Positions 5,565-52,233 of a stretch of DNA of 64,000 nucleotides are shown in pieces. The stretch covers positions 1 to 64,000 of the forward strand of contig JAEOTO010000006.1 in assembly GCA_016839805.1 (NCBI GenBank), read 5' to 3'. A program made the translations under genes and the position numbers. Below the pieces are notes generated by a model. It was not told where the DNA came from. It saw only the letters and a list, made by a program, of their open reading frames with translations, and made no database searches. Source of the stretch: Candidatus Hermodarchaeota archaeon (GTDB lineage: Archaea; Asgardarchaeota; Hermodarchaeia; Hermodarchaeales; Hermodarchaeaceae). How positions within the stretch are numbered: the first letter of the stretch is position 1; every line of letters begins with the position of its first letter.

Positions 5565-7328
5565 TCACAGCGAGGGGATGGGGATTTCACCATCGAAGAA
5601 AAAGCTGTTCTTTCGTACATATTGAAGATAACTCTGAATTTCCTGTTGAATCGTCTTCTTTGACCATCCAAGTATTTGCCCCATTCGGTCTGCGGCTATG
5701 GCTGCAATGTGTCCCTGGTATTCTGGCCGTACTAACCAGCAAACCTCCATTCGCCGGCAGAGGACATCAACCAGATGGAGTGGAGCCTCATGTTGGACGA
5801 GGTATTCTAACTCACCGATTATCCATGGAGCTACTTCAACCGGATAGACTGGATCTTCGAGTAATCTTTCACCTAACTCAGGATTTCGCTGAATTTCACG
5901 GAGAATGGTTAATCCTCCCCGTCCGTATTGCTGATACAGATGTTGAAGAATATGCGGGTGGAGTGCCGAATTGACAACTTCTGGCAGTGATTGCCATTCC
6001 TTTTTTGAAAGGCTGATGGCGTATGCGATTTTTGTTAGATTCTTTTTTCCTGAAAACTTTGGTAACCCGTGACGGTGACTTCCTTTCTTGATATGGTTAA
6101 TGAGTAAATCTTCGGCCATTTTTCGAAAAGTTGTTAATTTTCCTCCAAGCAGACTGTACATGCCATCGTCTCGTTCTAACACGGTGTGTTTTCGGGATAC
6201 ATCACTTTCAGCTTTCCCAATTTCTGCCATTAATGGTCGAAGTCCTGCATAGGTTCCCTGAATAACCTCGTCGCTGATACTTGCTTCGGGAAAAAGAATT
6301 CTTATTGTATTCCGTAGGTATTCGGCATCCTCACGTGTGCAAACACACTCGGCCGGGTCGCCTGAATAATCCGTATCAGTCGTTCCAACAAGCACCCATT
6401 CATTCCGTCGAATGGCAAAGAAAAATCGCCTGTCATCAATGGAATTCATTGCGAATGTATCATTAATCGGGAAATCCTTCCGATGGAACGCTAAATGAAC
6501 GCCTTTCGTTGGTCGAAGTATTTTTTCAGCATTTTTAACGTTTAACACAAGGAGTTCATCTGCCCATGCTCCTGTAGTATTGACGACAACCTTTCCTCGA
6601 ATATGCATTTTTTTAGCGGTGGAATTATGAAGATCGATGGCTTCAAGGCCATTAATCCGGCCTTTGGCATCATGGGTAAAACCGATAACGCGAACATAAC
6701 TCATTGGGAGTGCTTCTCCCTTCCACATTGCTTCTTTGAGTGTTTCAATTACCATTCGTGCATCATCGATATTCGAATCATACCACATTACGGCGCCTTT
6801 TGTTCGGGAGTCATCGAATAAGGGTTCGAGTTCCTTAATTGCATTAACGTCTTTTATTCCCTTTCCGCGTTTGAAGTTTTTGAAGCCAGACAAAAGGTCA
6901 TAAAGAAACGCTCCGAGTCGCACTGTGCGATAACTCCAGCTTTTGGGCAAATCACGGGTTCCAAGCGTCCCCTCCTCTAAAATTGGATAAAGAAATCTTG
7001 TCGGTCGCGTAAGATGTGGTAAACCCCGGTCCCGCAACCAATTTCTCTCAGTGGTGGCTTCTCGAACTAATCCAAATTCCTTTTGTTCCAGATACCGAAA
7101 ACCTCCATGGGCCAGTTTCGTGGATCGACTCGACGTTCCAAAGGCGAAATCATATTGATCGAGAACCGCGACACTTAACCCACGATAAACTGCTTCTAAA
7201 GCGACCCCAGCTCCATTAATTCCTGCGCCAATAACTACAAGATCCCAGGTCGTATCCTGCAATTCTTGAAGTTTCTGCTGACGATTGATTTGGCTGAATG
7301 AGAGCGTTTCAATACACTCCTGAGACAT
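5565..7328 (-). CDS. glpD: FAD-dependent glycerol-3-phosphate dehydrogenase
   Basis: Oxidises sn-glycerol 3-phosphate to dihydroxyacetone phosphate and passes electrons to a quinone or other membrane acceptor. The N-terminus carries the FAD-binding dinucleotide fold GAGINGAGVALEA (about residues 34-46), followed by the family signature SSRSTKLAHGGFRYLEQ. The substrate-domain motifs WADELL, GTTDTDY and LLGGKLTTFRKMAEDLL are present. At 587 aa it includes the C-terminal helical domain of the GlpD/GlpA type. Start ATG 7328 has AGGTG 8 nt upstream. This is the bacterial-type enzyme for the G3P stereoisomer, whereas archaeal lipids use G1P. Glycerol catabolism is the simplest role. No glycerol kinase or facilitator is in the window. 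Confidence 0.93.
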   Translation of the reverse strand: MSQECIETLSFSQINRQQKLQELQDTTWDLVVIGAGINGAGVALEAVYRGLSVAVLDQYDFAFGTSSRSTKLAHGGFRYLEQKEFGLVREATTERNWLRDRGLPHLTRPTRFLYPILEEGTLGTRDLPKSWSYRTVRLGAFLYDLLSGFKNFKRGKGIKDVNAIKELEPLFDDSRTKGAVMWYDSNIDDARMVIETLKEAMWKGEALPMSYVRVIGFTHDAKGRINGLEAIDLHNSTAKKMHIRGKVVVNTTGAWADELLVLNVKNAEKILRPTKGVHLAFHRKDFPINDTFAMNSIDDRRFFFAIRRNEWVLVGTTDTDYSGDPAECVCTREDAEYLRNTIRILFPEASISDEVIQGTYAGLRPLMAEIGKAESDVSRKHTVLERDDGMYSLLGGKLTTFRKMAEDLLINHIKKGSHRHGLPKFSGKKNLTKIAYAISLSKKEWQSLPEVVNSALHPHILQHLYQQYGRGGLTILREIQRNPELGERLLEDPVYPVEVAPWIIGELEYLVQHEAPLHLVDVLCRRMEVCWLVRPEYQGHIAAIAADRMGQILGWSKKTIQQEIQSYLQYVRKNSFFFDGEIPIPSL

Positions 7329-7505
7329 AGCCTTGCACCTGTTCTGAATGAGTGATTTAATCTTCTTGAGCTTTACTCAGGCATCAAATCTGCTTAACAA
7401 GGAAAAGCAGCAAACTCAAGTTAAACAAAATACTTTAGTAACGTGGTGCACGGAGGAATCTTGTAACTGCTAAACTGGTTGGGAATTGCGAAGAGGTTTA
7501 GGGTA

Positions 7506-8327
7506 TTGACAGTTCATAGCTTCTATGTCGTTGGATTAAGAGAAGGCTTCCCACTCTATAGCCGAAAATGGACCCATTCCGACGTAGATAGCGCACTTCT
7601 CTCAGGGTTCCTTGCAAGTATGGAACACATGGCTCAACAAGTCGCTGCACAACACGTCAATGTTGTGAACATGAAAGACCGTCGCTTTTTCTTTCAAATT
7701 GATGAAACTAATGGGTTGCTCCTCGTTTTTATCACAGACGTCAGTGAAAGTTCTGCCCGGTTCCGCAAATACCTCTCCCTTCTCAACAAAAAATTTGTCA
7801 AAATGTTCAAAAAACAACTCGAAGAACTCCACAAAGACGGCACTACTGATACTAACCTCTTCAAAAGCTTTGACGAATTCATCGACGACCTCGTCCTTAC
7901 CTGGTGGATGGGCGAAACCACCGTATCAGCCGCAAAGATAATGGACGTCTTCGAAGTCTTCACCATCTTCTTCAACACCATTCTACAAAACTTTCTGACC
8001 GACATCTCACGCCGAACCTACAACGACGACATTCAACACATCTTCAAAACCAACATGAAAAAAATCCCCGCCATTAAGGGCATACACATCGACCGCAGTG
8101 GTGTAGTCAACTACAAATCAATCGACCCCCAACAAATTAAATATCCACGTTTACGCCAAATTCTCTTCAAAATCTTCTCCCAACTTGTACAACTAACGCG
8201 CAAAACCATGCCCAAACAAACCTACCAATCACTGGTATTCGAACACATCAGTCCCCTCATCCGCGTTGAACAAGACCGCATGAAAACCTACTCACTAACT
8301 GAAAAAATCGTGATGGAACTACTATGA
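7506..8327 (+). CDS. Longin-like domain protein, co-transcribed with small GTPase
   Basis: A 273-aa protein. The first about 110 residues follow the longin/Roadblock-like pattern: a beta strand FYVVG, a tight turn with GFPLYSRKW, a long amphipathic helix (DSALLSGFLASMEHMAQQV), then strands RRFFFQID and GLLLVFITDV and a second long helix. The C-terminal 150 residues are helical and unassigned. I start it at TTG 7506, because GAGG (7493-7496) lies 9 nt upstream; a TTG at 7479 has no such signal. Its stop codon overlaps the start of the small GTPase gene in an ATGA, so the two are translated together. In eukaryotes longin proteins act as partners, exchange factors or tethers for small GTPases; that this one binds its neighbour is inference. 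Confidence 0.7.
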   Translation: MTVHSFYVVGLREGFPLYSRKWTHSDVDSALLSGFLASMEHMAQQVAAQHVNVVNMKDRRFFFQIDETNGLLLVFITDVSESSARFRKYLSLLNKKFVKMFKKQLEELHKDGTTDTNLFKSFDEFIDDLVLTWWMGETTVSAAKIMDVFEVFTIFFNTILQNFLTDISRRTYNDDIQHIFKTNMKKIPAIKGIHIDRSGVVNYKSIDPQQIKYPRLRQILFKIFSQLVQLTRKTMPKQTYQSLVFEHISPLIRVEQDRMKTYSLTEKIVMELL

Positions 8328-8878
8328 ACAACCCCACAGAAAGTACAACCCAGCCCATCGAAACAAGGCGCCCCTATACTCATATCGCAAAAGCCGTTGT
8401 AATCGGCGATGCCGCCGTCGGCAAAACCAGTCTCCTAGTACGCTATGTCAAAGGCATCTTCAACCCCACTTACATCCTCACCATAGGCGTTGCATTTCAC
8501 GTCAAAGATATTTTATTAGGCGAGCATGTCTTGAGGCTCCAGTTATGGGATACTGGTGGTCAGGAGCGGTTTGGACCGATTCGACAGTTGTATTATCGGG
8601 GGACGAAGGGTGTCTTATTAGTGTATGACCGGGCAAATCGTGAAAGCTTTGATCGAGCAGCCTATTGGCTGAAAGAAGTACAGCGAGGCTGTGGAGATGT
8701 ACCAGTTGTATTGGTCGCAAATAAAGCAGACTTGAAGGCATTGGTAAAACCAAAGGAGGGAGAGGAGTTTGCTGGTGAACGTGGTATGGGCTTTGTGGAG
8801 ACGAGTGCAAAGACAGATATGAATACTGATCTCGCGTTCTCAATTCTAGCTTCGCGTATTATTGAAAATATGGGCTAG
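8324..8878 (+). CDS. Ras-superfamily small GTPase (Rab/Arf-like)
   Basis: All five G motifs are present: G1 GDAAVGKTS (28-36), the switch I threonine in ILTIGVAF (Thr53), G3 WDTGGQERF (75-83), G4 NKAD (133-136) and G5 ETSAK (159-163). The G3 box reads DTGGQ, with Gly where Rab and Ras have Ala, as in Arf and G-alpha proteins. The catalytic Gln is kept. The protein ends at MG without a C-terminal cysteine box, so no prenylation signal is visible, and the 20-residue N-terminal extension has no obvious myristoylation context. It forms an ATGA-overlap operon with the longin-like gene. Codon composition changes sharply near position 8505. The 3' end overlaps the convergent DUF4443 gene by 4 bp. 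Confidence 0.93.
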   Translation: MNNPTESTTQPIETRRPYTHIAKAVVIGDAAVGKTSLLVRYVKGIFNPTYILTIGVAFHVKDILLGEHVLRLQLWDTGGQERFGPIRQLYYRGTKGVLLVYDRANRESFDRAAYWLKEVQRGCGDVPVVLVANKADLKALVKPKEGEEFAGERGMGFVETSAKTDMNTDLAFSILASRIIENMG

Positions 8879-9522
8879 GACTTCGTTAACTGGCTTCTTT
8901 TTTTGAAGACTGTGATGGTGGCTGCAAACGCTCCAAGCTTTGCTGAAATAAGTGTTGCTCCTGAGCCAATGATAATGATATCTCCCTCTTGTAAATCAAA
9001 AGTTTCGATAAGCTGGTACACATCCTGTTTTTTAACTTCATAAGATGTAGGCATAATGAGCTGATTGGGGTCAGAGGTTTGAATCAATGTTGTGGCACCC
9101 GTAGCGCCTGCTTGAATGGCGGCATCACGTTGTTCGACCCCATTTGTGATATGGTGTGCCATTTGGTGTAAATGGCACCCGAAATTAGAAGTGTCAATAG
9201 TGTAACTACTCTGTGGAAGCTCCATGAGTTTGATGAGCATTTGGTTGAGCTTCTCACAGTGACGTTTTCCTTCTGGAGAAAGCCGATGGCCTTGTCGACT
9301 TACAGGCTCAATGAGTCCACGATCTCGAAGAAAACGGATGAGGGATCGAATACTCCCACCTCCAAGTCCAAGATCAGAGCCTAGTTTGTATCGACCAATA
9401 GGAGAAGTGCTTTGACAAAAGGTATAGAATGCAGCAAGGAGGTGCCACGGGTGAAACTGAGTGGGTGGGCCTTGACGAGCATCAGTATTAAGAAGTTTGG
9501 TGAGCTCCATGAAGACCGTCAT
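8875..9522 (-). CDS. Winged-helix DUF4443-domain protein
   Basis: A 215-aa protein with an N-terminal winged helix (about residues 30-95: GRYKLGSDLGLGGGSIRSLI as recognition region, wing RDRGLIEPVSRQGHRLSPEG). A C-terminal ligand-binding-like domain carries QRDAAIQAGATGATTLIQ and a final GDIIIIGSG. This matches archaeal DUF4443 proteins, thought to be small-molecule-responsive regulators (family knowledge, function unproven). It is the last gene of the minus-strand run that includes the ECF/DUF4430 cassette, 12 bp after the S-component gene, so it may regulate that uptake system. The start is uncertain between ATG 9522 and ATG 9510. Confidence 0.75.
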   Translation of the reverse strand: MTVFMELTKLLNTDARQGPPTQFHPWHLLAAFYTFCQSTSPIGRYKLGSDLGLGGGSIRSLIRFLRDRGLIEPVSRQGHRLSPEGKRHCEKLNQMLIKLMELPQSSYTIDTSNFGCHLHQMAHHITNGVEQRDAAIQAGATGATTLIQTSDPNQLIMPTSYEVKKQDVYQLIETFDLQEGDIIIIGSGATLISAKLGAFAATITVFKKRSQLTKS

Positions 9523-33410: not shown

Positions 33411-34106
33411 ATGCCATCAATTGAAATCTTCCCCGGAGTGCTATCCCTTATTCTCAGCAGGGCAGCCCGTGCAGGACGGACTGAAATTGGTGGCTTCCTC
33501 TTCGGAAAACTCCAACGTAATCGGCTCCTCATTACTGGTGCGACCTTCCCACAACAACACGGAACACGTACCCATGTAACCATAAACGATCTAGACATGG
33601 CTCTCCTTGCTGAAGAACTTGCCCAACGGGGTACTGGCGAAGTCATCATCGGCTGGTGGCATACCCACCCAGGATTGGGAGCGGGTTTTATGTCTAGCAC
33701 TGATATTTCGACGCAATTACGATACCAGGCGTTTTTCCCTGAAGCAGTTGCAGTAGTGATTGATCCTCTGAGATTTTCTGAATCTATGGATTTGGCAGAT
33801 TTGGATCTTCATGTGTATACTGTGGAGAAGCGGAAGGAGCGCGATTTAGAGTATATGTATGTGCAAGATCCAGAGGAAGTGATTCCCGATCTTTATGGTA
33901 TAATGATGACGCTAGAAGAGCCTGAGCACATGTTGTTTGAGGACACTTGGTTTGAGAAGATGTTGCGTGATGTGTTTGGGGAAGAGGTGACTACACCGGT
34001 GTTTACCTATCGATTAGGCGATTTTATGGAAGCAGCTGTGGTTATTGGAGCGATGATTTTTCTTGGTATCTTTGTCGCAATTGCACTGATGGGATTGGTT
34101 GTGTAG
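33411..34106 (+). CDS. JAMM/MPN+ metalloprotease with C-terminal membrane anchor
   Basis: 231 aa. The zinc-protease motif is complete: Glu26 in TEIGGFLFG, then WWHTHPGLGAGFMSSTD giving His84, His86, Ser95 and Asp98. This is the catalytic MPN+ set found in Rpn11, CSN5 and archaeal JAB1 proteins that cleave ubiquitin-like conjugates. Residues 209-229 (AAVVIGAMIFLGIFVAIALMG) form one membrane helix at the C-terminus, so the catalytic domain would face the cytoplasm. No ubiquitin-like or E1/E2 gene is in the window. The codon composition changes near position 33680. Confidence 0.88.
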   Translation: MPSIEIFPGVLSLILSRAARAGRTEIGGFLFGKLQRNRLLITGATFPQQHGTRTHVTINDLDMALLAEELAQRGTGEVIIGWWHTHPGLGAGFMSSTDISTQLRYQAFFPEAVAVVIDPLRFSESMDLADLDLHVYTVEKRKERDLEYMYVQDPEEVIPDLYGIMMTLEEPEHMLFEDTWFEKMLRDVFGEEVTTPVFTYRLGDFMEAAVVIGAMIFLGIFVAIALMGLVV

Positions 34107-34187: not shown

Positions 34188-34876
34188 TTACTCGGGTTCA
34201 TCAAATCCGAGGGCTTTCAGAGCGGCAAGGATGGCTTCTTTATCGTCAACGGAAACGTCATCGACTTCAGAGCTAGCTTCGGAGACGCTCACCGTTTCAA
34301 GACCGGTTCCTTCTACAGGAGCAATAGTGGGCTCTGCTGCAACAGTTTCGGGTTCTGCGGTTTCTGCAGGTTCTGGGATTAGGTCTGGAGGTGTGGGTGT
34401 TTCTGCAGGTTCTGGTTCAGTGAATGCCTCGGCAGCTGCAATGGGTTCAGAGGCTGCTGCTGGCATTTTACGGAACCCAAGGAGTTGGTCGGGTTCTAAG
34501 GGATGGGATTCCATGATTTTGGTCACTTTGGTTGCATAAATTTTCATTAATCCGATATAGTAGCCCAGTCGAATTTGATCTCGGCTAGCGCCAACCAAGA
34601 GGGTTTCGGGGGTCCCTCGCATGATAATGGTGAAACCTTTGTTTCCTCTTAGTATCACCTCGGATAAAGTACCTTGACTTAATTGTCGAAGCGTTTCTTC
34701 GCCAACATTAACTAGCGTGGCTGTCGCTGCAGAAAAAATATCCGAGTCCACATCACCACTAACCGCACAAGCGAGCCGAATACCCTCACGAGTAACTACA
34801 GCAAGAGCTTCTAATCCAGTTGATTGCTCGATGCGTCGCATTAAATCCTGTAAATCTTTAAAGGGAGTCTCAGCCA
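34188..34876 (-). CDS. Roadblock/LC7-domain protein with long acidic Pro/Ala-rich tail
   Basis: 229 aa. Residues 5-120 are a Roadblock/LC7 domain: helix DLQDLMRRIEQSTGLEALAVVTREGI, strands with LSEVILRGNKGFTIIMRG and a helix IRLGYYIGLMKIYATKV. Residues 130-215 are low complexity, with Pro, Glu, Ala and Thr repeats (EPEPAETPTPPDLIPEPAETAEPE). A short final helix DDKEAILAALKALGF could be a binding peptide. Roadblock proteins act as partners or activators of small GTPases of the MglA/Rag/Arf group. GTG 34889 is an alternative start. Confidence 0.85.
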
Positions 34877-35053
34877 TCGTCCAACTCACTCTGTGAACCT
34901 GTCTTGATTGTTCTCTCCCCTGTTTCCTATATCAACCTTGCTGTACCCATAGCTAGAGTTTTCATCGGGTTGCGAGCGTCTAAAATTTAGTGATGCAAAA
35001 AGATTACTTTCAGTTTCCCCTACTAGTCAAGGGTTTGCTTGAACGTATTGGAG

Positions 35054-51760: not shown

Positions 51761-51837
51761 ACCTGAATGTAGGCGCAGGTTTTTAGCGGTGTGAATCAAG
51801 TTTTAATTCCAATATAGCGCTGTTATCCGTGTTGCCG

Positions 51838-52233
51838 ATGACCGAACCGGACCTCCCTGAAGACCCAATGGAAGCTATTATGCAGATCCTTAGAGAGGCT
51901 GAACAAGGTGTTGATGGAATTCGGGGAGTGGCGGTCGTTTCTACAGATGGTCTTCCAATGGCTAGTGCGGTTGATGCGAAGATCGGGGAAGCTGAGTTAG
52001 CAGCTTTAGCTTCCTCCATGTTATCAATTGGATCAACAGCCATAGACAATCTCAAGAAAGGTGAACTGGATAGCATTTATGTGAAATGTGATAAGGGCTA
52101 TATTCTTCTCAGATACAGCGGACCGCTTGCCGTTGTCCTTTTTATCACAGAGGAGAATGCAAGGCTAGGACCCCTCTTACTTGAATTAAAGCGCACTGCT
52201 CAACGTCTTGAAAAAATGCTAGGGTTTGGTTAA
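51838..52233 (+). CDS. Roadblock/LC7-domain protein (single domain)
   Basis: 131 aa, one Roadblock domain and nothing else: helix DPMEAIMQILREAEQGVDGIRGVAVVSTDGLPMAS, second helix AALASSMLSIGSTAIDNLKKG, strands SIYVKCDKGYILLRYSG and LAVVLFITEE, final helix GPLLLELKRTAQRLEKML. Such stand-alone Roadblock proteins are abundant in Asgard archaea and partner small GTPases. A TATA-like CCAATATAGC (51809-51818) lies 25 nt before ATG 51838, suggesting a leaderless start. GTG 51829 is an alternative. Confidence 0.9.
   Translation: MTEPDLPEDPMEAIMQILREAEQGVDGIRGVAVVSTDGLPMASAVDAKIGEAELAALASSMLSIGSTAIDNLKKGELDSIYVKCDKGYILLRYSGPLAVVLFITEENARLGPLLLELKRTAQRLEKMLGFG

Follow-up and report, generated by a model that had tools for sequence, protein, structure and literature searches.

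Longin and roadblock proteins serve as platforms for small GTPases, as in TRAPP, Mon1-Ccz1, and MglB, and Rab1, the substrate of TRAPP, carries Tyr-Ile in switch 1 (YI-x-T). In the bacterial mglBA operon, MglB is encoded together with MglA and acts as both GAP and GEF (PMC11016934), and the tri-longin GEFs need a Tyr-Lys/Arg motif in switch 1 of the GTPase (PMC12383261). In Asgard archaea, longin-GTPase fusions have been mentioned in Lokiarchaea (Dey et al. 2016, PMC4917890) and in MK-D1 (PMC10933270). In MK-D1, genes for small GTPases as a rule lie outside operons with roadblock, longin, and TRAPPC3 genes, and matching them is thus difficult (Tran et al. 2024, PMC10933270); the operon analysis of Asgard GTPases has been listed as an outstanding question (Dey et al. 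2016, PMC4917890).

The gene pair described here was identified in a 64,000-nucleotide stretch of the metagenome-assembled genome of a Candidatus Hermodarchaeota archaeon (GCA_016839805.1, contig JAEOTO010000006.1, positions 1 to 64,000; this whole stretch is referred to as the window). It resembles mglBA in that a gene for a putative regulator of the roadblock/longin superfold lies directly upstream of, and is coupled to, that of its small GTPase, forming a dedicated pair, but it differs in that the longin fold is followed by an extra helical domain of ~160 aa and in that the GTPase is Rab-like, with no MglA-type switch-1 Arg. In the Lokiarchaeal and MK-D1 fusions, a longin is likewise joined physically to an Asgard small GTPase, and natural fusions are also present in the source genome (L004, 1498-2367; L102; and L105). 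The present locus, however, comprises two separate overlapping genes, one for a Rab-like GTPase and the other for a protein with a distinct C-terminal domain, whereas the fusion L004 matches Arf with a better score than Ras. The haloarchaeal vesiculation operon ArvA-ArvB-ArvC (PMC10927574) is another archaeal example in which a small GTPase is encoded alongside partners dedicated to it, but neither ArvB (DUF2073, SepF-like) nor ArvC (zinc ribbon) is a longin, and the GTPase belongs to a different family. The longin/roadblock-GTPase module is already known, but no description of the C-terminal domain of the present longin protein was found; likewise, no description of this longin/GTPase pair or of the longin + helical family was found in the literature searched, which mostly lay outside the subscription journals.

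Organization of the locus

The two overlapping ORFs proposed in the first-pass annotation are both present and share the ATGA (Table 1). The TTG start of the longin gene is preceded, 9 nt upstream, by a GAGG sequence. An alternative TTG at position 7479, which would give a longer ORF, is also open in the window; because two orthologs contain no start codon ahead of residue 10, this longer start is unavailable to them, and the TTG at position 7506 was taken as the correct start. The start positions of the other relatives agree with a longin protein of ~273 aa. A GTGATG-like stretch precedes the GTPase start in the majority of the orthologous copies in Hermodarchaeota. Where computable, the dN/dS values were 0.03-0.09 for the longin gene and 0.05-0.09 for the GTPase gene; being below 0.1, they indicate that both genes are real and under strong purifying selection. 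The upstream neighbour, an FAD-dependent gene of the alpha-glycerophosphate oxidase type (5565-7328), is divergent and separated by a 177-nt gap, and the downstream neighbour, a DUF4443 gene (8875-9522), is convergent, and the pair therefore forms a two-gene unit.

Table 1. Positions of the genes, domains, and motifs of the longin/GTPase locus in the window
Feature	Position	Strand	Details
Gene for longin + helical-domain protein	7506..8327	+	273 aa, TTG start; ORFs, ortholog starts, dN/dS
Gene for Rab-like small GTPase	8324..8878	+	184 aa; PF00071 E 9e-50, PDB Rab35 E 1e-40
ATGA start/stop overlap of the longin and GTPase genes	8324..8327	+	Exact in 15/15 Hermodarchaeota copies
GAGG, Shine-Dalgarno-like, ahead of TTG start 7506	7493..7496	+	Sequence; role suggested by position
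GTGATGG, candidate ribosome site of GTPase gene	8310..8316	+	Within the last longin codons; putative function
Longin domain, residues 1-110	7506..7835	+	AlphaFold2, Foldseek, PF19036 21.5 bits (below cut-off), profile vs PDB
C-terminal helical domain, residues 111-273	7836..8324	+	AlphaFold2 of residues 110-273; without known relative
G1/P-loop GDAAVGKT, residues 28-35	8405..8428	+	Sequence
Switch 1 FNPTYILTIG, Tyr kept, Ile in place of the tri-longin-GEF Lys/Arg	8459..8488	+	Partner comparison; motif from PMC12383261
G3 DTGGQ, residues 76-80	8549..8563	+	Sequence
G4 NKAD, residues 133-136	8720..8731	+	Sequence
G5 TSAK, residues 160-163	8801..8812	+	Sequence

Elsewhere, the window also encodes two proteins of the roadblock/LC7 family (PF03259, E ~2e-12), at 34188-34889 (-) and 51829-52233 (+), the former with a long Pro/Glu/Ala-rich tail. 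The gene for the former adjoins, on the opposite strand, that of a JAB/MPN metalloprotease (33411-34106, +; PF01398, E 1.8e-12), which has a hydrophobic C-terminal stretch resembling a membrane anchor. Outside the window, a divergent Ras-like GTPase of the same genome is surrounded by four roadblock matches (L199, G000:C22:83500-89000), possibly an MglBA-like cluster.

The longin domain

The longin protein was modelled as a single chain by AlphaFold2 using a 52-sequence alignment (mean pLDDT 83, pTM 0.60). Confidence was mostly >85 in the C-terminal half and weaker in the longin half, above all in the first helix (blocks of 52-62 around residues 21-50). The predicted topology is b1-b2-a1-b3-b4-b5-a (E5-10, E16-21, H29-46, E53-56, E59-66, E71-78, and H83-111), and the sheet and helix a1 are the parts most conserved among orthologs. 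In a Foldseek search against PDB, nearly all top matches to the model were longin proteins, the best being TRAPP Bet5 (E 4.8e-5), with further matches to Mon1 in the Mon1-Ccz1-Ypt7 complex (5ldd), COPI delta/zeta, AP sigma/mu, and Sec22b. A sequence profile searched against PDB retrieved BET5 (E 4e-4), COPI delta (0.03), and MON1A (0.05). The element order of the model, together with the lack of a roadblock-type N-terminal helix, places the N-terminal half in the longin superfamily rather than among the roadblock proteins, in agreement with the longin-like fold that the first-pass annotation had read from the sequence. Membership of roadblock/LC7 (MglB) was rejected, as Pfam gave no match to Robl_LC7 (PF03259) in the longin protein and the AlphaFold2 model opens with a strand.

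Pfam Fuz_longin_1 (PF19036) matched 40 of the 52 family members at E<=0.05, a possible resemblance to Mon1-Ccz1, Fuzzy-Inturned, and BLOC-3, although the window protein has one longin domain and these GEFs have three. The window protein scored 21.3-21.5 bits against a curated cut-off of 26.1. Because the same model exceeds its cut-off in 104 of the 228 Asgard genomes and picks up many other Asgard longins, its match is no proof of kinship with Mon1. Among the Asgard proteins above this cut-off are many short (130-170 aa) stand-alone longins (L076-L085 and others).

Bet5/TRAPPC1 is the closest solved longin by both profile and fold, and switch 1 of the window GTPase reads YI-x-T, as does that of Rab1. 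The window protein is, however, no small single-domain subunit; no Bet3-like domain was recognised in it, and no relative of its C-terminal domain was found. Membership of the Bet5/TRAPPC1 (Sybindin) family was rejected, since Sybindin matched only 1 of the 52 members (E 0.037) and the protein is 273 aa long with a second domain.

The C-terminal helical domain and its distribution in Asgard archaea

When the C-terminal domain of ~160 residues was predicted alone, AlphaFold2 gave a pLDDT of 87.5 and a pTM of 0.77, with residues 112-273 modelled as helical except for one small hairpin. No PDB fold matched the isolated domain at E<=0.001 (Foldseek), and no sequence relative was found in Pfam, NCBIfam, or PDB, so that the claim of a helical C-terminus with no known relative was borne out within these databases. 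A second longin, a TRAPPC3/V4R domain, and a DENN domain were each ruled out by Pfam and the isolated-domain fold search. The longin-DENN-dDENN order of a DENN module was likewise rejected, as there was neither a DENN match in Pfam nor a PDB fold match at E<=0.001.

A profile of this domain was searched against 228 Asgard genomes and matched in 144 of them (33 of the 45 high-quality ones). The reading frame that contains the match nearly always encodes some 270-330 aa, and a longin precedes the domain at every locus opened. Outside Hermodarchaeota, 58 loci were opened; among the 56 with enough downstream sequence, none has a GTPase gene overlapping or abutting the family gene, and only in L057 is a GTPase gene found downstream on the same strand, at a distance of 425 nt. 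The family's ancestral role therefore did not need an adjacent GTPase. The longin + helical family is old, and strict pairing is specific to Hermodarchaeota, having been either gained later there or lost elsewhere. Tandem arrangements of two longin + helical members occur in one other Asgard family (three genomes: L062, L064, and L066), which hints at heterodimers.

The GTPase

The GTPase contains motifs G1-G5, T53 among them, confirming the five motifs reported in the first-pass annotation, but its designation there as Arf-like has to be corrected to Rab/Ras-like. This assignment is based on G1-G5 and on PF00071 (Ras) as the best Pfam family, with 169 bits vs 51 bits for Arf (PF00025), and the best PDB matches include Rab35, Rab1, and Sec4, with Rab8 also matched. 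The Arf-like alternative is ruled out by the same scores and by the lack of Gly2 (N-terminus, MNNPTEST). DTGGQ is found only in the ortholog group of the window GTPase and in L055, whereas the other partner GTPases carry the Rab-type AGQ; DTGGQ is thus no fixed trait of the partner GTPases. No lipidation motif was detected in the window GTPase: Cys123 is its only cysteine, there is none near the C-terminus (IIENMG), and Gly2 is lacking. It does not, therefore, correspond to a eukaryotic-type Rab with prenylatable C-terminal cysteines.

Pairing and co-duplication in Hermodarchaeota

Pairing was surveyed in eight genomes of the Hermodarchaeota family, representing two genera and containing two or three longin + helical family members each; only copies with downstream sequence were counted (n = 15). 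All 15 share the identical 4-nt overlap with a downstream GTPase gene, a conservation far above chance. Neither of the two outcomes named in the first-pass annotation as refuting its reading was observed, the fold being longin and the dedicated pair being maintained throughout the Hermodarchaeota copies, but pairing does not hold as a general Asgard feature (0/56 informative loci elsewhere). The source genome contains two such pairs, which are paralogous and located in unrelated gene contexts.

The partner GTPases form one clade in the tree (SH-aLRT 99). It takes in three additional GTPases of the second genus, encoded in the same clusters as the pairs, and leaves out all other GTPases of the source genome placed in the tree. 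The distances among longins and among GTPases are correlated (Mantel r 0.92, p 1e-4), partly reflecting shared species history. The longins and their partner GTPases have clearly co-duplicated. Of the ~20 Ras-like GTPase genes in the source genome, two belong to longin pairs and a further three form fusions with other longins, indicating that longin-GTPase association is recurrent. In the second genus (L053, L049, and L051), the clusters that contain the pairs also include additional GTPases or another longin gene, and the gene order in L053 is longin-GTPase-GTPase-GTPase-longin-GTPase.

Possible function of the longin protein

By analogy with known longin and roadblock platforms, the longin protein probably binds its GTPase as a dedicated partner and governs the nucleotide state and/or location of the latter. 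Direct binding is the most likely relationship in view of the gene coupling, the co-duplication, and the longin fold. The overlapping genes are probably translated in a coupled manner, which would yield matched amounts of the two proteins and favour assembly of the cognate pair. Through its sheet/helix platform, the longin domain would then probably bind the Rab-like GTPase at the switch face and, once bound, set the nucleotide state and/or site of the GTPase. The helical C-terminal domain probably serves in dimerisation or docking, given that a lipid anchor signal is lacking in the GTPase. In gene order, with the regulator first and the GTPase second, and in fold class, the pair would work like MglB-MglA. 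If, instead, the two proteins took part in one process with no direct contact, the operon would merely synchronise their expression. Operon partners need not bind, and the genes are unlinked outside Hermodarchaeota, but this explanation is rather improbable, as the exact overlap has survived paralog duplication and relocation with co-duplication of the partners, and longins are a known GTPase-binding fold.

As to what a bound longin protein would do, we tentatively favour an exchange-factor-type platform, which appears somewhat likelier than a stable effector or anchor or a GAP. GEF activity is possible, as is TRAPP-like or, by analogy, MglB-like action: switch 1 of Rab1 likewise reads Tyr-Ile, and MglB, encoded in the same gene order, combines GAP and GEF activity. 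A stable effector or anchor, which is a sub-case of direct binding and thus overlaps the main reading of a dedicated binding partner, would bind the GTP state and bring the GTPase, which lacks lipidation, to a membrane or a larger assembly with its nucleotide state unchanged, comparable to the SR-alpha longin with SR-beta and AP/COPI longins with Arf1. The AP and COPI chains among the Foldseek matches, the lack of Cys/Gly lipidation signals in the GTPase, and the stable complex that coupled 1:1 translation would suit are consistent with such a role; it is nevertheless somewhat unlikely, the GTPase being Rab-like and not SR-beta/Arf-like and no membrane-binding signal having been established in the C-terminal domain. 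Acceleration of GTP hydrolysis, as by MglB or FLCN/SMCR8-type longins, is less probable still. MglB, a GAP/GEF, shares one operon with MglA (PMC11016934), and R60 of the longin protein is present in 93% of Hermodarchaeota and in 100% of the aligned members of Asgard family f28, but it is found in only 26% of the other Asgard members, and switch 1 of the GTPase contains no Arg that could act as an MglA-style intrinsic finger. A family-wide arginine finger was rejected, as no Arg is invariant, and no catalytic residue was identified in the longin protein.

The least probable reading, and a very improbable one, is that of a strict tri-longin RabGEF that drives a Lys of switch 1 into the nucleotide site, as Mon1/Fuzzy do. 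Just one Pfam family, the first longin domain of FUZ/MON1/HPS1, is matched by a majority of the members, and the Mon1 structure matched by Foldseek is bound to Ypt7. However, the C-terminal half is helical with no further longin domains, the Pfam model is as unselective among Asgard longins as described above, and the residue after the switch-1 Tyr in the 15 partner GTPases is Ile (14) or Leu (1), never Lys/Arg. The lysine-insertion mechanism is thus largely refuted. More broadly, but doubtfully, the Asgard-wide longin + helical family might represent an ancestral Rab exchange factor consisting of one protein (a pre-TRAPP/pre-Mon1 GEF), with the C-terminal domain doing the job of later partner subunits and Hermodarchaeota keeping it hard-wired to its substrate Rab.

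Implications

Asgard archaea encode many Rab-like GTPases and longins for which partner assignments are lacking, and this locus names a specific pair, a kind of GTPase-regulator pairing that published operon analysis had not found. Together with the second, paralogous pair of the source genome, the activity and specificity of the putative regulator become directly testable. The locus also exposes an Asgard-wide protein family whose C-terminal domain is new to Pfam, NCBIfam, and PDB.
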